64,000 bases of DNA from Gracilibacillus ureilyticus (GTDB lineage: Bacteria; Bacillota; Bacilli; Bacillales; Amphibacillaceae), in the NCBI RefSeq assembly GCF_900111195.1, contig NZ_FOGL01000006.1, positions 1 to 64,000 on the forward strand. Reading direction: 5' to 3'. How positions within the stretch are numbered: the stretch's first letter is position 1; each line of letters opens with the position of its first letter. Both the position numbers and the translations under genes were made by a program. Under the pieces are notes generated by a model that worked only from the letters and a program-made list of their open reading frames with translations, was not told the origin of the DNA and did not search any database. This document shows, piece by piece, positions 45,936-58,080 of this stretch.

Positions 45936-45976
45936 AGTATGAGACATACACTACATTCTTAATGGGGGTATGTTTA

Positions 45977-47041
45977 ATGAAAAAGGGAAATATATTCGTC
46001 CTGCTTCTTTCCTTTTTAGTGATGTCATTTGTTCTTATTGCGTGTGGATCAGATAATTCCGGGAATGAGACTGAACCGGAAGAACCGGCTGATACGTCAG
46101 AGAACACAGCAGAGGATGAAACAGATGGGAATAAAGAAGTGGCAGAAGAAGAAACTGAAGAACAGTCGTTTGATTTTTTAAGTATGTTAACAGGTGGTAC
46201 AAGCGGAACCTACTATCCGCTTGGTGGAGAAATGGCCTCAACAATTACGGATGCGACAGGGATTCAGACAGATGCACTCTCATCGAATGCATCAGCAGAT
46301 AATGTGGTTGCACTGCAAAATGAGGAAGCAGAATTAGCTTTTGTTCAGACTGATGTAATGGATCATGCAGTAAATGGTATTAATGCTTTTGATGGGAATC
46401 CGGTAGAAAATGTTCAGGCAATTGGTTCACTTTACCCTGAAACGATCCAAATTGTAACAAAAAAGGACTCCGGCATTGCCTCAGTTGAAGACCTGGCTGG
46501 AAAGAAAGTATCTGTTGGGGCTCCAGGCTCGGGAACATATATTAATGCGGAACAAATATTAGAAATCTACGGAATGACAATGGATGATATTGAAGCACAA
46601 AATCTTGATTTCAGTGAATCAACTGGTGGAATTCAGGATGGAAATATTGATGCGGCATTTATTACATCAGGTACACCGACAGGGGCTGTTGAAGGACTTT
46701 CTGCGACTGTAGATGTAGCAATTGTACCAATAGAAGAGGATAAGATTGAAGCATTAATCGAGCAGTATCCTTTCTATGCGAAGGATACAATTGCAGCAGG
46801 AACTTACGGATTGGAGGAAGACGTTGTTACAGTTGCGGTTTTGGCGATGTTAGCAGTTACAGATAACATCCCTGAAGAGTTAGGATATGAAATTACAAAA
46901 GCTATTTATGAAAATGCAGAATCTATGGCTCATGACAAAGCTTCCTTTATCACTGTTGATTCAGCTTTGGATGGAATCGGTATAGAGCTACATCCGGGAG
47001 CGAAAAAATACTTCGATGAACAGGGAATCGCCCAGGAATAA
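45977..47041 (+). CDS. TAXI-family TRAP transporter solute-binding lipoprotein
   Basis: The 354-residue lipoprotein is the extracellular receptor of a tripartite tricarboxylate-type TRAP importer of the TAXI class. After the signal peptide (lipobox LIAC) and a long Glu/Asp/Asn linker comes the TAXI signature LTGGTSGTYYPLGGEMA, then AVQNEE-like and GKKVSVGAPGSGTYINAEQI segments. Such systems take up dicarboxylates, glutamate or related acids with Na+ or H+. ATG 45977 follows GGGGG at eight bases. A hairpin separates it from the membrane-subunit genes. Confidence 0.92.
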   Translation: MKKGNIFVLLLSFLVMSFVLIACGSDNSGNETEPEEPADTSENTAEDETDGNKEVAEEETEEQSFDFLSMLTGGTSGTYYPLGGEMASTITDATGIQTDALSSNASADNVVALQNEEAELAFVQTDVMDHAVNGINAFDGNPVENVQAIGSLYPETIQIVTKKDSGIASVEDLAGKKVSVGAPGSGTYINAEQILEIYGMTMDDIEAQNLDFSESTGGIQDGNIDAAFITSGTPTGAVEGLSATVDVAIVPIEEDKIEALIEQYPFYAKDTIAAGTYGLEEDVVTVAVLAMLAVTDNIPEELGYEITKAIYENAESMAHDKASFITVDSALDGIGIELHPGAKKYFDEQGIAQE

Positions 47042-47053
47042 CAGCTTTACCAT

Positions 47054-47085
47054 AATAGTCGACTGTTGATAAACAGTCGGCTATT
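47054..47085 (+). terminator. Intercistronic hairpin after the TRAP binding-protein gene
   Basis: AATAGTCGACTGTT pairs with AACAGTCGGCTATT (one mismatch, GATA loop). There is only a short T tract, so it probably reduces rather than stops transcription into the permease genes. Confidence 0.7.
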
Positions 47086-47147
47086 TCATAACAGAAAAAT
47101 CTTCAACCAGCATGGAATGATGAATTTTGAAAAAAAGAGGGTTTACA

Positions 47148-47678
47148 GTGTCAGGGAAAATTTTCGGAAGTGTTTGTATCTGTTGCACAGTTATTGCCAT
47201 CGTTATCTTTCTTGTTCCAGCCACTACAGCATTAGTTTTTTATCACGAGAATACAAATAAAATTGAAGCATTTCTGCCATTAGAAACAGGAGATACATTC
47301 CAATTTATATTCACCCACTCCATTCATTTAACAGACGTTGTGGAAACATATGAAGTTACGGATGATTTAGAAATCAAACAGAATGAAATCGCTTACGAAC
47401 ATTTCGGTATTGGAATGCCTTCAAATGCTGGAGAAGGAGAAAAGTTCACATATGAAGATGGCAAATACCGTATAAGCAAATTAGATAATATTTTTTCATC
47501 GATTAATATAAGAAATGGAAAAACTGTTTCACGGAATCGACTGATTTGGGGCAATGAAGGAGAAAATTTAATCTGGTTTAATCAATATTTTGATCCGGGT
47601 GCCTGGTTCAAAGTGAAAATAAAAAGAATCACACTATGGGAATATATCAGAGGGGTGAGGATATATGAGGGAAGATAG
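47148..47678 (+). CDS. DUF1850 protein of the TAXI-TRAP system
   Basis: The 176-residue protein has one N-terminal membrane helix (about residues 5-28) and an outside domain of the DUF1850 family, including FIFTHSIHLTDVVETYEV. DUF1850 genes regularly lie between TAXI binding-protein and fused permease genes, so it is probably an accessory subunit; its exact role is not established. GTG 47148 is preferred because AGAGGG lies six bases upstream; an in-frame TTG at 47127 would add seven residues. It overlaps the permease gene by 14 bases. Confidence 0.8.
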   Translation: MSGKIFGSVCICCTVIAIVIFLVPATTALVFYHENTNKIEAFLPLETGDTFQFIFTHSIHLTDVVETYEVTDDLEIKQNEIAYEHFGIGMPSNAGEGEKFTYEDGKYRISKLDNIFSSINIRNGKTVSRNRLIWGNEGENLIWFNQYFDPGAWFKVKIKRITLWEYIRGVRIYEGR

Positions 47679-49641
47679 CGGGGGTACTTCTATTTCAGAA
47701 GATAAGAAGAGAGAATTGCTGGAAAAATATGACTCGGAAGCCGGTATAAGAAATTTATCCGGGATGCTTGCTAAGGCAGTTGTCATTATTCTTGTCGGCT
47801 TTTCTTTATTTCAAATTTATACAGGCATATTTGGTCAATATACGGCATACATTCAGCGAACTGTACATTTAGGCTTTGCACTTGTACTGATTTTCTTCCT
47901 ATTTCCTTCTATTAAGAATAAAGGAAAAACTTCCGTCCCGTGGTTTGACTATATACTGATTATGTCAGCAATTGTTGTATGTGCTTATTGGCCATTATTT
48001 TATCAAACACTCGTACAAAAAGTCGGCGGAATTGATAATATCCAAATGGTGATTGGCGGTGTTGCTATTCTGCTTGTGCTGGAAGCTTCCAGAAGAGCGG
48101 TCGGGCTGCCAATAACTGTTATTGCAATCATTTTTTTACTTTATGCGTTATTGGGTCCTTATATGCCGGGAATGCTTGCACATCGGGGCTTAAGCTGGAA
48201 TCAGTTAATTGATTCCATGTTCTTCACAACAGAGGGGATTTTAGGGACACCATTACAAGTATCCTCCACCTATATTTTTCTGTTTTTACTGTTTGGTGCT
48301 TTCCTCGTACAAACAGGTGTTGGTCAATATTTTAATGATTTAGCATTAGCGATAGCAGGTAAAAGAACAGGTGGACCAGCCAAAGTAGCGATATTCTCAA
48401 GTGCGTTAAATGGAACAATCTCTGGTAGTTCTGTTGCAAATACTGTTACTACTGGCTCTTATACTATACCAATGATGAAAAAACTAGGGTATCATAAAAA
48501 TTTCGCTGGTGCTGTGGAGGCAACTGCCTCAACTGGTGGTCAGCTAATGCCTCCGATTATGGGTGCAGCGGCCTTCTTAATGATCGAATTTGCCGGGGAA
48601 AGCTACTGGAATATTGCCAAGGCAGCAATTATTCCTGCTAGTCTTTATTTTGCAGGGATCTGGATTATGACACATTTAGAGGCAAAAAGAATCGGTTTGC
48701 ACGGGTTAAAGAAAGAAGAGCTTCCTAATCGAAAAGAAGTTTGGAAGAAGCTTCATTTATTAATCCCGATATTAGCTATTATCTTATTTCTGTTTCAGGG
48801 AATGAGTGTGGAGCGTGCTGCTTTGTACGGAATATTAGCAACAGTTATTGTTAGTCTCTTCCGGAAGGAAACGAGAATAACACCAAAGAAAGTGTTAACA
48901 GCATTACAACAGGGTGCACGAACAGCTTTAGGAGTAGCAGCAGCAACCGCTTGTGCCGGGATAATTGTCGGTGTTGTAACAAAGACGGGGTTAGGGTTAA
49001 AACTAGGCAACAGTCTTGTTGATATTGCGGGTTCCTTATCGTTTTCTGTTTCATCGCAATTGTTATTAACATTATTTTTTACCATGGTCGCCTCCATCAT
49101 ACTAGGAATGGGATCCCCAACAACTGCTAACTATATTATTACATCAACAATTGCTTTGCCTGCCATATTAGCATTAAATGACAGTTTAGAAATAGCTATT
49201 CCTGTTCTGGCTGCCCATATGTTTGTCTTTTATTTCGGAATTTTAGCCGATATTACCCCACCCGTTGCATTAGCAGCATTTGCGGCAACAGGCATCTCTG
49301 GCGGTGAACCGATAAGAACAGGAATTAATGCGGCGAAACTTGCCATTGCTGCATTTATCATCCCCTATATGTTTGTGCTGAATCCCACACTATTAATGAT
49401 TGATGCAAGCTATCTGGAGGTCGGCTGGTCATTATTGACAGCTTTACTTGGTATGATGGTTATCGGTGCATGTATGATAGGTTACTGGTATCGCAGACTT
49501 TACTGGTTTGAAAGAATTCTAACATTAATTTCAGGCTTATTTCTTATGTATCCAGAAGGTATATCTGATATAGTGGGATTAGGTGGATTTATCATTCTTT
49601 TCCTCATTCAGATATTTACAAAGGAAAAGAAAGAAGTATAA
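47665..49641 (+). CDS. TRAP transporter fused permease subunit (TAXI type)
   Basis: The 658-residue protein joins the small (DctQ-like) and large (DctM-like) membrane subunits of a TRAP importer in one chain, with about 16 helices. The DctM part carries the family signature GTISGSSVANTVTTGSYTIP near residue 250 and EATASTGGQLMPPIMGAAAF just after, and the C-terminal half repeats the pattern with MGSPTTANYIITSTIALPA. It couples uptake to an ion gradient. Translation is coupled to the DUF1850 gene by a 14-base overlap. A strong terminator follows. Confidence 0.93.
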   Translation: MREDSGGTSISEDKKRELLEKYDSEAGIRNLSGMLAKAVVIILVGFSLFQIYTGIFGQYTAYIQRTVHLGFALVLIFFLFPSIKNKGKTSVPWFDYILIMSAIVVCAYWPLFYQTLVQKVGGIDNIQMVIGGVAILLVLEASRRAVGLPITVIAIIFLLYALLGPYMPGMLAHRGLSWNQLIDSMFFTTEGILGTPLQVSSTYIFLFLLFGAFLVQTGVGQYFNDLALAIAGKRTGGPAKVAIFSSALNGTISGSSVANTVTTGSYTIPMMKKLGYHKNFAGAVEATASTGGQLMPPIMGAAAFLMIEFAGESYWNIAKAAIIPASLYFAGIWIMTHLEAKRIGLHGLKKEELPNRKEVWKKLHLLIPILAIILFLFQGMSVERAALYGILATVIVSLFRKETRITPKKVLTALQQGARTALGVAAATACAGIIVGVVTKTGLGLKLGNSLVDIAGSLSFSVSSQLLLTLFFTMVASIILGMGSPTTANYIITSTIALPAILALNDSLEIAIPVLAAHMFVFYFGILADITPPVALAAFAATGISGGEPIRTGINAAKLAIAAFIIPYMFVLNPTLLMIDASYLEVGWSLLTALLGMMVIGACMIGYWYRRLYWFERILTLISGLFLMYPEGISDIVGLGGFIILFLIQIFTKEKKEV

Positions 49642-49764: not shown

Positions 49765-52107
49765 ATGAACGATAATCAATTGAAAAATTCCAATACAATG
49801 TACCAGGCGGCGGAAAAACAGGCTGAAGTGTATTTTCAAAAGTTACTTCATTTAATCCAGTCAGGTGAAGTTTTCCCGGCTTTAGAAAGTGACTTGGAAA
49901 CACTAAAAGGAAAACATTCCATATCCAGACTTTTTTCCATATCAGCTAAACTCGTACAAACGAAAGAATACTCTTCCTATATCAATTTGCTGAAAAAATC
50001 CGGATCTTTAACGAGTTATTTAGAGCGGAGTATCTCTTATATTTATTTGCGGGATTTAGGTAAATCGTTAGCCTCTCAGGAAACGAGAGAAAGGATTACT
50101 AGTACTGTCAGTGATCTGGAGAAATATCTGACCAGTAAAAGTGGTATGGAGCCATTTCGTTTAACAGAACTGTATCGATGGGCAAAAAATGAACAGATTG
50201 AAGAAACGTTCCTCTGGTTAATGGATAAGTTGAAACTGGTCTCTGATCATATTCCTGAAGGCATGGACAAAGACAATGCTAAACGTAAACTCATTAAAAT
50301 AATTGGAGGGGTGCTTCTCCATGAATATGATGAGATGGAAGAGAATATGGAAGGAAATAAGAGAGCCAAACGACTGGATGAGGCAATCCGTTTGGGCTAT
50401 TGTTATGGATTAACATATCCATTTATTGATGATCTGTTGGATGCTGATATTTTGACAGCCCATGAGAAAAAGCAATATTCGGATCTGTTACGAACCACTT
50501 TTACAAACAGAGAGGTTGTTGTGTGGAAAGAGTGGGAAGGAGAAAATGAAGAACTGATTCGTTTTGTTCACAGGGAACTTGGAGAAGCATTTTCCTTTAT
50601 TACACAGCGAATATCCGTGGAATTAAGAGAAAAGTTTTTTGATCAGGTAAATATTTTTTTCCAATCACAGGAGATTGACAGGGAGAAAAACTTAACAAAC
50701 CCCTCTCTTACTAATAGAGAACTCTATCTTCCCGTAATTTTAAAGTCTTCATCTTCACGCCTGATTGTCCGGTCTTTAATTAGCAGTACAGATAAAGAAA
50801 TAGATAATCGGACATTTTACTACGGAATCTATAATCAATTATCTGATGACTTTACTGATTTTTTCCAGGATTATGAAGACGGAGCTGTTACACCATATAC
50901 GTATTATTTTACTTACTATGACAAGAGGAATGATTTAATAAATCCGTTTGAGCTATATTGGGCAGTTATCTATTATTTAATTCACAATGTTTATCATTCT
51001 GATAAAAAAACTGCACACATTATCTTAAGCAGGGCAATAAATGGCTTGAAACGAAATAAAGAGAGATTAGGTGAGGATAAATATCAACAGCTGATGGGTG
51101 TCTTTGCAAGAAATATCAAGGAATTTCACCAATCTATTCTTCAGCTGATTCATAAAGTTAATGATGTTGATTTTTTTGATAAGCTGTTGCGTGATCATAT
51201 GCTGAAAACAATGAAAGAAAATCGTGAGGAGAAGAAACAATTTTTAAGGAATGTTTCTGTAATAAGAAATAGGTTAAACAAAAGGTTACCGATTCAGCAG
51301 AGTGAAGAAATACGTGAATTAATTACAGGGGCTGCGAACTACAGTTTAGTAAGTGATGCAAAAAGATTACGTCCGATTGTCGCTTCAATGGTTGCTACAG
51401 ATATCTATCAATTAGATGAAGTGGCCATTATACCGCTGTTGAAATCACTGGAATACATGCATACCGCTTCACTTATATTTGATGATTTACCATCACAGGA
51501 TAATGCTTCTATAAGACGGGGGAAACCGACACTGCATGAAGCTTATAATAGTGCTGTCGCAGAGTTGACAGGTTTATTTCTCACCCAAAAGGCATACGAA
51601 GAACAGGCAGCACTGGATCAGTTTGACCCCAAAAGTGTTCTTGGTCTCATCCAGTATTCAGCCAAAATGACTGCCCAAATGTGCAAAGGGCAGGCGATTG
51701 ATCTGGAATCTAAAGGCAAGAAGCTGACACTATCAGAACTGAATCAAATGTGTTATTTTAAAACAGGAATTGGATTTGAAGCCGCTATAATTATGCCAAT
51801 GATTCTTGCGCAGGCCTCAGATACGGAAAAAAGTTATATGAAGAAATATGCTTATCATGCCGGAATCGCTTTTCAAATTAAAGATGACTTGCTCGATGTG
51901 GAAGGGAAAAAGGATATTATCGGAAAGCCTACAGGAAACGATCAACATAATGACAGCTCAACATTTGTTTCAGTACTCGGAATTGTGGAAGCCAAAAAAG
52001 CAATGTGGGATCATTATTGTGAGGCACAGGAAAGTTTAGATGGAATGTCGCAAAATTCCAATTTCCTGAAACACTTACTGGATTATTTTATTAACAGGGA
52101 GAAATAA
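49765..52107 (+). CDS. Two-module class I isoprenoid synthase (polyprenyl synthetase C-terminal)
   Basis: The 780-residue protein has a C-terminal trans-prenyl diphosphate synthase module (about residues 510-775): AKRLRP (532-537), first Asp-rich motif IFDDLPSQD (571-579), RRGKPT (584-589), KTGIGFEAA (666-674) and second Asp-rich motif IKDDLLDVEG (705-714), as in short-chain farnesyl/geranylgeranyl diphosphate synthases. The N-terminal 480 residues also look all-helical and contain two Asp-rich motifs about 138 residues apart, IDDLLDAD (221-228) and LSDDFTDFFQDYEDG (359-373), the spacing of a second class I isoprenoid synthase fold. It may make a prenyl diphosphate and use it in a second reaction such as cyclisation or transfer. 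Family members in Bacillaceae carry only generic names. The length is over twice that of IspA. Single gene, own terminator. Confidence 0.8.
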   Translation: MNDNQLKNSNTMYQAAEKQAEVYFQKLLHLIQSGEVFPALESDLETLKGKHSISRLFSISAKLVQTKEYSSYINLLKKSGSLTSYLERSISYIYLRDLGKSLASQETRERITSTVSDLEKYLTSKSGMEPFRLTELYRWAKNEQIEETFLWLMDKLKLVSDHIPEGMDKDNAKRKLIKIIGGVLLHEYDEMEENMEGNKRAKRLDEAIRLGYCYGLTYPFIDDLLDADILTAHEKKQYSDLLRTTFTNREVVVWKEWEGENEELIRFVHRELGEAFSFITQRISVELREKFFDQVNIFFQSQEIDREKNLTNPSLTNRELYLPVILKSSSSRLIVRSLISSTDKEIDNRTFYYGIYNQLSDDFTDFFQDYEDGAVTPYTYYFTYYDKRNDLINPFELYWAVIYYLIHNVYHSDKKTAHIILSRAINGLKRNKERLGEDKYQQLMGVFARNIKEFHQSILQLIHKVNDVDFFDKLLRDHMLKTMKENREEKKQFLRNVSVIRNRLNKRLPIQQSEEIRELITGAANYSLVSDAKRLRPIVASMVATDIYQLDEVAIIPLLKSLEYMHTASLIFDDLPSQDNASIRRGKPTLHEAYNSAVAELTGLFLTQKAYEEQAALDQFDPKSVLGLIQYSAKMTAQMCKGQAIDLESKGKKLTLSELNQMCYFKTGIGFEAAIIMPMILAQASDTEKSYMKKYAYHAGIAFQIKDDLLDVEGKKDIIGKPTGNDQHNDSSTFVSVLGIVEAKKAMWDHYCEAQESLDGMSQNSNFLKHLLDYFINREK

Positions 52108-52133
52108 TGATATCGTCGTTGCTGACTGATTGG

Positions 52134-52165
52134 AAAAGCATCAAATAATCCATTTGATGCTTTTT
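52134..52165 (+). terminator. Terminator after the isoprenoid synthase gene
   Basis: AAAAGCATCAAAT pairs perfectly with ATTTGATGCTTTT, followed by T. It may also serve the convergent siderophore permease gene. Confidence 0.9.
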
Positions 52166-52259
52166 CAGTTACGATTGTTTTATTTCCGCGTTGTTTCAAG
52201 AGGCTCTGAAAGTTCAGCGAGTATAGGGAACCAATGATGAGCAGTCCTGGAGACGATAT

Positions 52260-56622: not shown

Positions 56623-58080
56623 ATGGCTAAAATAGGTTTTCACTTTGATAATAGTTACACATCATTGCCGGAGCGGTTTTACAGCAAAACAAATCCAACA
56701 CCTGTGAGTAGTCCTGTTTTACAATTGTTTAATGAAGGTTTAGCAGAACAGCTTGGCCTTAAGGTGGATGAATTAAAGCAGGAAACCAATATTGGAATAC
56801 TGGCAGGTAACACAATACCTAATGGGGGAATGTCTATCGCACAAGCATATGCAGGACATCAATTCGGACATTTTACAATGCTGGGGGATGGGCGTGCAAT
56901 CCTGTTAGGAGAGCATGTTTCACCAAATGGTGATAAATTTGATCTGCAATTAAAAGGGGCAGGTATCACACCATACTCCAGAGGTGGTGATGGCCGGGCG
57001 ACTCTTGGACCGATGCTGAGAGAGTATATTATTAGTGAGTCAATGCATGCTTTAGGAATTCCAACTTCAAGGAGTTTAGCTGTTGTGACAACTGGAGAAC
57101 AAGTAATGCGTGAAACTGTACTGCCTGGTGCTATTTTAACACGGGTTGCTTCAAGTCATATTCGATTTGGTACTTTTCAATATGCAGCGACATTTGGGGA
57201 AGAGGGAGATGTTCAGAAATTAGCAGATTATACAATTAAACGGCATTATCCTGATTTGGAAAAGATGGACAATCCTTATCTTGCTTTGTTGCACGAAGTT
57301 GTGAAGCGGCAGGGAAACCTTATAGCAAAATGGCAACTGGTTGGGTTTATCCATGGTGTAATGAACACAGACAACATGACAGTAAGTGGTGAAACGATTG
57401 ACTATGGGCCCTGTGCATTTATGGATGAGTATGATCCGGCAACTGTTTTTAGTTCTATTGACAGGCAAGGTAGATATGCATACGGAAACCAGCCAAACAT
57501 CGGCGGTTGGAATCTGGCTAGATTTGCCGAAAGTTTAATACCATTAATAGATGAAGATAATGACAGGGCAGTTGAGTTGGCACAAGAAGCAATCTCAAAG
57601 TTTCCTGAACATTTTCATAATCATTGGCTCAAAGGAATGTGCGCAAAGCTCGGCATTTATAATCCGGAAGAATCAGATGAAGAGCTTATTAAGGAGCTGC
57701 TCGAATTAATGAGCCAATTCGAAGCAGACTTTACCAATACCTTTAGAGCCCTGACTTTTGAAGATAGAAAAAGTCTTGTAATGTTTGGTACAGAACCTTT
57801 TCAATTATGGGAGAATAAATGGCAAGAGCGTCTGAAGCGGCAGAAAGAATCAATGAGTCAGTCTGTGGATTTGATGAAAGATAACAACCCGGCAATTATC
57901 CCAAGAAACCATCGTGTAGAAGAAGCGATAAATGCGGCAGTGATGGATGATGACTATTCTAAATTGTTTCAATTGCTTAACGTCTTATTTAAACCTTATG
58001 CACATTCAAGTGATCAATTGGAGTACGCTTCATTACCACCTAAATCGGAAAGACCGCAACAGACGTTTTGCGGAACATAA
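56623..58080 (+). CDS. selO: SelO/YdiU protein adenylyltransferase
   Basis: The 485-residue protein is the bacterial homologue of selenoprotein O, a pseudokinase-fold enzyme that transfers AMP from ATP to Ser, Thr or Tyr of target proteins, with a role in redox stress. Family strings are [21 protein letters not shown] (shown here in part), [20 protein letters not shown] and [16 protein letters not shown]-like sequence; the metal and catalytic residues appear in [20 protein letters not shown]. The C-terminal Sec or Cys of the eukaryotic form is represented by a Cys at the third-last residue (CGT). It is a single gene closed by a terminator. Confidence 0.93.

Follow-up and report, generated by a model that had tools for sequence, protein, structure and literature searches.

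A conserved two-module protein of Bacilli joining a predicted trans-prenyl diphosphate synthase to a diverged class I isoprenoid-synthase-like module

The genome of Gracilibacillus ureilyticus carries, at positions 49765-52107 (+ strand) of the window (i.e., the whole stretch of 64,000 nucleotides that was analyzed), a gene for a putative fused two-module isoprenoid synthase of 780 amino acids, and the fusion is conserved. The sequence evidence supports the view that this protein consists of two class I isoprenoid-synthase-like modules, as had been proposed in the preliminary description of this DNA; both the profile alignment and the order of the motif-bearing helices agree with that proposal. 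We tentatively interpret the protein as a bifunctional enzyme in which a PT-like C-module feeds a prenyl-synthase-derived, terpene-synthase-like N-module, as in the PT-TS chimeras of fungi, an interpretation that we judge to have a slightly better than even chance of being correct.

The fused gene and its distribution

The open reading frame starts with ATG and runs for 780 codons on the + strand, on which all other features of the window named below also lie. Its diverged, class I isoprenoid-synthase-like N-module spans residues 1-482 (49765-51210) and its C-module, assigned to the short-chain trans-prenyl diphosphate synthases, residues 483-780 (51211-52104). The preliminary description had noticed DDLLDAD (residues 222-228) and DDFTDFFQD (361-369) in the first and DDLPSQD (573-579), RRGKPT, and DDLLD (707-711) in the second, and each of these motifs was confirmed in position.

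Among 84,980 species genomes scanned, 477 stretches matched and 427 places were confirmed, 80 of which were kept for detailed comparison. In 79 of these 80 relatives the protein is encoded by one open reading frame, which has 780-834 residues if measured from the earliest possible start; at the remaining locus (L048) the frame is split after the N-module and the C-module lies in the next one. The kept loci come from Gracilibacillus, Neobacillus, Sporosarcina, Psychrobacillus, Paenibacillus, Oceanobacillus, and others, and include one named Clostridium. The closest relative, at 72% in the N-module and with five upstream genes in common, is that of Gracilibacillus oryzae. The N-module was present in 55 of 159 genomes of the host’s family (15 out of 46 genera), in 82 of 148 genomes of a second family of Bacilli, in 32 of 299 genomes drawn from the host’s class, and in nine of 398 drawn from the phylum, where eight were near-full-length and one (G512) was a distant standalone relative. 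The second family is probably the Paenibacillaceae, judging by the many Paenibacillus loci encountered in the species-genome scan. Plasmid records gave no match.

The distances of the N- and C-modules in a full-length alignment of the window protein and 61 of the 80 loci (62 rows) correlate with an r of 0.86. This fits inheritance of the two modules as one, although shared descent alone would also correlate them. Typical fused copies were also seen outside the host’s class (G282) or under the label Clostridium or Clostridia (L110, Clostridium polyendosporum; L095, a MAG), for which horizontal transfer, mislabelling, or a binning error are possible explanations. Split, shortened, or stop-bearing copies were observed at L048:4416-6856, L008, L017, L022, G011:C41, and G948:C8; these few genomes seem able to do without the gene.

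The two modules

The C-module passes the curated cut-off of PF00348 by a wide range (164 vs. 27 bits, E 4.2e-48) and stays below those of the NCBIfam models FPPsyn (210 of 275 bits) and CrtE (162 of 460). A full-length AlphaFold2 model of the fused protein (pLDDT 85.1, pTM 0.83) matched crystal structures of FPP synthase and CrtE, among its best 50 matches, at TM scores of 0.79-0.90 by target length. The motifs follow one another in the manner of a chain elongator: KRLRP (533-537, 51361-51375), which we take to be the region of the IPP site, HTASL (566-570, 51460-51474), the first Asp motif DDLPSQD (51481-51501), RRGKPT (584-589, 51514-51531), presumably also part of the IPP site and lacking a counterpart in the N-module, and the second Asp motif DDLLD (51883-51897), 134 residues after the first. 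In the full-length alignment KR[ILV]R, RRG, GQxxD, DDLP[SA]xD, and HTASL occur in all 62 C-modules and FQ[IV]KDD[LIV]LD in 60 of them. The C-module thus belongs to the trans-prenyl diphosphate synthase family, and its motifs strongly suggest that it elongates prenyl chains. The residue five places before the first Asp motif limits the length of the prenyl chain. Here it is the Ala of HTASL, whereas the nine aligned FPP-synthase-like rows all have Tyr, and because of this replacement the product of the C-module is probably C20 or longer. The unusual GLFLT at residues 603-607, to which the preliminary description had drawn attention, was indeed found and turned out to be a family trait, since 79 of the 80 relatives read [FY]L[TIS]Q at 605-608 and the exception, L048, is cut before that region. 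The host genome holds two other PF00348 proteins and one YtpB (E 2e-147), and the fused enzyme is therefore probably not the housekeeping one.

The N-module is far more divergent. In an alignment of 81 rows (a first alignment held 29 of 30 rows, L017 being left out) D222, D223, D226, D361, D362, D365, and D369 are invariant. The first Asp-rich motif (DDLLDAD, 50428-50448) is DDLLD in 79 rows, the other two having DDILD and DDLMD, respectively, and the second (QLSDDFTDFFQD, residues 358-369, 50836-50871) reads DDxxDxxxD in 81/81. A distance of 138 residues between them had been reported earlier; the spacing itself stands, but its exact value, from first Asp to first Asp, is 139, and it varies between 139 and 141 over all 81 rows. 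The layout had been described as that of a class I terpene synthase or a diverged prenyl synthase. Prenyl synthases, with two DDxxD motifs, proved to be closer, whereas a canonical class I terpene synthase combines one Asp motif with an NSE triad. This triad, (N/D)DxxS/TxxxE/D, is absent from 81/81 N-modules, in which Asp replaces Ser/Thr and the third acidic place is kept. No N-module (0/81) has RRG after the first Asp motif, so that the module is probably not a chain elongator; RRG was found upstream of this motif in L045 and L097.

Database searches place the N-module at the edge of detection. This copy reached no Pfam or NCBIfam family above cut-off; its match to PF00348 (E 0.029) amounts to 14 bits against a curated cut-off of 27, and no Pfam terpene synthase or PF10776 match was obtained at E ≤ 1. 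Searching the PDB with the single sequence returned nothing at E ≤ 10 and with the profile eight unrelated matches with E of 0.22 or worse. PF00348 matched 16 of 29 N-modules at E ≤ 1. As read from the end coordinates of the matches, the best stretch is in register in 10 of the 16, with about residues 280-380 on profile positions 93-197 (in L005 a short one, 340-370 on 160-194), and off-register, with the first Asp motif on the second of the profile, in six, including this copy and L025. The latter is the only one of the 29 to reach the cut-off (27.2 vs. 27 bits, in two stretches). Outside these 29, L110 has an in-register match with an E of 7.6e-4. A purpose-built prenyl-synthase HMM gave a best E of 0.0036; in L113, the one fused row inspected residue by residue, its best match is off-register. 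Comparison of the C-module profile with the N-module profile produced no real match or usable alignment.

Comparison of profiles was more informative, and trans-prenyl synthases are the best-scoring profile for the N-module. When 81 N-modules and two standalone relatives were aligned by hhalign with 37 prenyl synthases (31 plus six C-modules), the top alignment comprised 209 columns with a score of 34.9 and a probability of 23%. It is co-linear: D222, D223, D226, Q358, D361, D362, D365, D369, G373, and T376 fall on their counterparts, the first Asp motif exactly on the first, and GIYNQLSDDFTD exactly on GMAFQIVDDILD, i.e., on the FQxxDDxxD place. Downstream, QDYEDGAVT is placed on SDLRQGNIT, with D369 on the Asp of DLxxGxxT and, after a missing loop, T376 of VTPYTYY (375-381, 50887-50907) on its Thr. 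SQEIDR (301-306, 50665-50682) stands at the GQxxD place, one residue off, and K327 (50743-50745) corresponds to the KT lysine with an offset of two residues; K327 is invariant in the 81 rows and has the same helix depth as K666 in the full-length model. Control maxima were 26.1 for column shuffles and 28.7 for ten-column blocks (150 each), and 24.9 for the reversed alignment; 100 further ten-column block shuffles reached at most 29.8, none attaining 34.9. Thirty-column block shuffles exceeded 34.9 in 2 out of 150, because whole motifs survive in such blocks. A second, off-register alignment of 60 columns, with the first motif on the second, scored 34.3, and when a third standalone protein (L176) was added the co-linear alignment fell to 24.4 and the off-register one rose to 39.0. 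Both Asp motifs of the N-module thus look somewhat like the second motif of a prenyl synthase. The co-linear reading is favored by the way in which the motifs are ordered and spaced and by the D, G, and T that follow them. YtpB was considered as the parent of the N-module and was attractive by eye, but its score lies within the shuffled controls (11/100 as high).

Standalone relatives were found in three of the 398 phylum genomes: L137 (L137:1495-2754, + strand, 419 aa), L122 (L122:3-1193, - strand, cut by the contig end), and L176. The search that found them recovers three of the eight fused proteins in the phylum sample, with E of 8e-5 to 3e-4. Over ten rows, i.e., these three and seven fused proteins, 18 columns are invariant (A172, R174, Y218, D222, D226, L264, E271, Q302, G354, Q358, D361, D362, D365, D369, T376, N393, L474, and L475), while D223 is Asn in the three standalone proteins. 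A prenyl-synthase-like QxxDDLQDV segment was observed in the standalone family. L122 had no Pfam match at E ≤ 1. The profile of the group scored 37.0 against prenyl synthases (0/100 shuffles as high, 4.0 SD above the shuffle mean) and 30.7 against SQS_PSY (0/100, 5.6 SD), whereas 62/100 shuffles were as high against YtpB, so the group can, judged by its profile, be regarded as a class I relative. An Arg that is conserved in this group and lines up with R174 coincides with the arginine of KRxRP, and a part of the IPP site may thus remain in the N-module.

The N-module had been described as all-helical, and a model built from 81 rather similar rows (mean pLDDT 85.3, pTM 0.87) is all-helical. In the fold search that had been suggested, Foldseek found 458 PDB matches at E ≤ 10, the best with an E of 8.2e-3 and thus none (0/458) at E ≤ 0.001. 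By title, 47 of the best 50 are prenyl or terpene synthases; the other three (Rv2173 twice and HEPS2) are, as we understand them, isoprenoid synthases as well. The fold search therefore came out as anticipated with regard to the identity of the best 50 of the 458 matches, all being isoprenoid synthases, but less so in their strength, given the best E of 0.008, TM scores of at most 0.34 (query) and 0.47 (target), and rmsd values of 10-20 Å. In the full-length model the anchor helices occur in the same order in the N- and C-modules (197-226/556-573, 285-306/622-649, 317-338/656-681, and 344-364/686-713), and the Asp motifs of the N-module lie near helix ends in prenyl-synthase order. The class I isoprenoid synthase fold is, therefore, indicated for the N-module, not proved.

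Genomic neighborhood

The preliminary description saw no terpenoid genes nearby, and indeed none occurs among the eight flanking proteins scanned; no conserved terpenoid gene cluster was seen around the fused gene among the compared loci either. The one recurrent neighbor is the gene for SelO, a protein adenylyltransferase (56623-58080), which accompanies the fused gene at 31 of the 141 loci compared (80 named loci, 60 further regions, and the window), within 9-10 kb or less on each side. In all 31 cases it lies on the same strand (none on the opposite), on either side of the fused gene, and in eight within 1 kb. By sample, it was found at 21/80 named loci and in 10/60 further regions, with one partial match more. 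We estimate that uniform placement would predict SelO near under 1% of loci. The next clusters of neighbors are an ABC ATPase, for which many paralogues are expected (23 loci), and others that attain at most 11. The SelO neighborhood is clade-patterned: in the 60 regions it was present in nine of ten genomes of the same genus, in none of 30 of other genera of the family, and in one of 20 of the second family. The named loci with SelO nearby belong to Aquibacillus, Neobacillus, Mesobacillus, Metabacillus, Robertmurraya, Bacillus methanolicus, and other taxa, and its distance and side vary among them. Because many of these loci are related, the number of independent events is smaller than 31. 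The literature searched showed no link between SelO and terpenoids in Bacillus.

Upstream, a TAXI-type TRAP transporter set was observed at 45962-49641 (+ strand), comprising an NMT1-like binding protein, a DUF1850 protein, and a DctM permease, which ends 123 bases before the fused gene. This set also adjoins the fused gene in G. oryzae (L034), and homologues of the binding protein and DctM lie near that of L035; it was seen beside the fused gene at no other of the 80 named loci and in one of the 60 further regions. Just after the stop codon a terminator-like stem-loop of 20 pairs is present (52127-52171), which is suggestive only, as three such sites were found where 1.5 are expected. A promoter scan was uninformative (12 found vs. 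10.5 expected).

Possible function and known systems

In the mechanism that we prefer, the C-module would extend a short allylic diphosphate by condensation with IPP, probably to C20 or beyond. The N-module would then take over this prenyl diphosphate and ionize it, with no IPP being added, and a terpene, linear or cyclic and either a hydrocarbon or an alcohol, would be released. The N-module would be a diverged relative of trans-prenyl synthases that has kept both Mg-binding Asp motifs and has no RRG. There is precedent for such a change. According to a study of a rust fungus, this organism has prenyl-synthase-like terpene synthases without coupling activity, one of which keeps its second motif, DDxxN, intact and acts as a terpene synthase all the same, and changing one Arg of the synthase, thought to contact the diphosphate of IPP, abolished activity and gave some release of terpene (PMC7484799). 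Because of this precedent and the missing RRG, ionization without IPP is favored. R174 may be the counterpart of this Arg, in which case elongation would be conceivable.

A bolder version of the terpene-synthase interpretation is that Bacilli evolved their own chimeric terpene synthases independently of fungi, i.e., a new class I lineage with the DDxxDxxxD motif and a dedicated prenyl synthase for C20 or longer chains, spread over hundreds of species, producing an undescribed di- or sesterterpenoid and tied through SelO to redox stress. We regard this as a serious possibility that falls somewhat short of an even chance.

Alternatively, the N-module could be a coupling enzyme that attaches the product of the C-module to another prenyl chain, in a head-to-head or head-to-middle manner, to a peptide, as ComQ does, or to some other lipid. 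The retention of both Asp motifs in the absence of RRG would fit such a role, as would the standalone relatives, which align with SQS_PSY as clearly as with prenyl synthases; the fused N-modules themselves, however, do not stand out against SQS_PSY (13/100 shuffles as high) or YtpB (11/100), and among the neighbor clusters, annotated in part, only SelO stands out as recurrent. We consider coupling, for which ComQ and MoeN5 are conceivable parallels, rather unlikely.

Still less probable, in our view, is that the N-module is itself a diverged prenyl synthase and lengthens the product of the C-module with IPP in a second phase of chain elongation. The trans-prenyl synthase profile scores best, the N-module has two DDxxD motifs, and R174, K175, and K178 are conserved before the first of these, but RRG follows this motif in none of the 81 N-modules, and their sole [KR][KR]xRP is at residue 63 of L106, far upstream. 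A non-catalytic N-module, in the role of an integral small subunit governing chain length or location, seems to us marginally more improbable again: the first ~165 residues are without a prenyl-synthase counterpart in the hhalign alignment, and heterodimeric prenyl synthases with a chain-length subunit exist (HexA/HexB and HepS/HepT; PMC7839719), but the metal-type Asp residues are invariant in 81 rows and mostly kept in the three standalone relatives. Finally, the fusion could be accidental or an error of assembly, or the Asp motifs could have arisen by chance in a protein that is merely helical, and the few split, shortened, or stop-bearing copies (L048; L008, L017, L022; G011; G948) might be taken as a sign of this. 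Such an artefact is very improbable and already refuted by conservation, as 79/80 kept relatives are single frames of 780-834 residues and the fusion occurs in many separate assemblies.

If the bifunctional terpene-synthase reading is true, these proteins would be a bacterial counterpart of the fungal enzymes with a differently derived N-module, and hence a case of convergent fusion. A single gene would then provide terpene scaffolds from C5 precursors, and ideas on the origin of terpene synthases from prenyl synthases could be tested on these proteins. Their presence would also hint that widespread soil genera, among them Neobacillus, Sporosarcina, and Paenibacillus, make an unknown terpenoid. 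The fused family was not found in the literature searched, which comprised titles and the starts of abstracts and had most subscription journals outside its range. Likewise, 12 of the 15 passages of a 2025 genome-mining paper on spore formers (PMC12654598) contain none of the terms ‘polyprenyl synthetase’, ‘fusion’, ‘bifunctional’, or ‘two domains’.

Among known systems, several are informative for comparison. Bacterial FPP and GGPP synthases (IspA, CrtE) have the motifs and fold of the C-module in common but differ in having HTYSL where it has HTASL and, in the form given in the preliminary description, GDxLLT where it has GLFLT. YtpB (tetraprenyl-beta-curcumene synthase, DUF2600) is, like the proposed N-module, a class I terpene synthase of Bacilli, but the similarity of the N-module to it does not go beyond shuffled controls. 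The standalone proteins of ~420 residues of other Bacillota have the motif residues of the N-module in common but have no prenyl synthase attached. The ILTPS of Melampsora and the IDS-type TPS of insects are likewise terpene synthases derived from prenyl synthases (PMC7484799); they are standalone and closely resemble GGPP or FPP synthases, whereas the N-module is a barely detectable relative of prenyl synthases, larger, and fused. The parallel with fungal fused synthases, already drawn in the preliminary description, is apt: in PT-TS such as fusicoccadiene synthase PaFS, according to a 2021 survey that calls these chimeras unique to fungi, a TS module is N-terminal and a trans-prenyl synthase C-terminal in one protein, which itself produces the allylic diphosphate (PMC8307374). 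In our case the TS role of the N-module is putative. The fused enzyme differs in being bacterial and in its prenyl-synthase-like N-module with two DDxxD-type motifs and no NSE triad. If our interpretation holds, it would thus work like a PT-TS chimera without being one, failing on the NSE triad.
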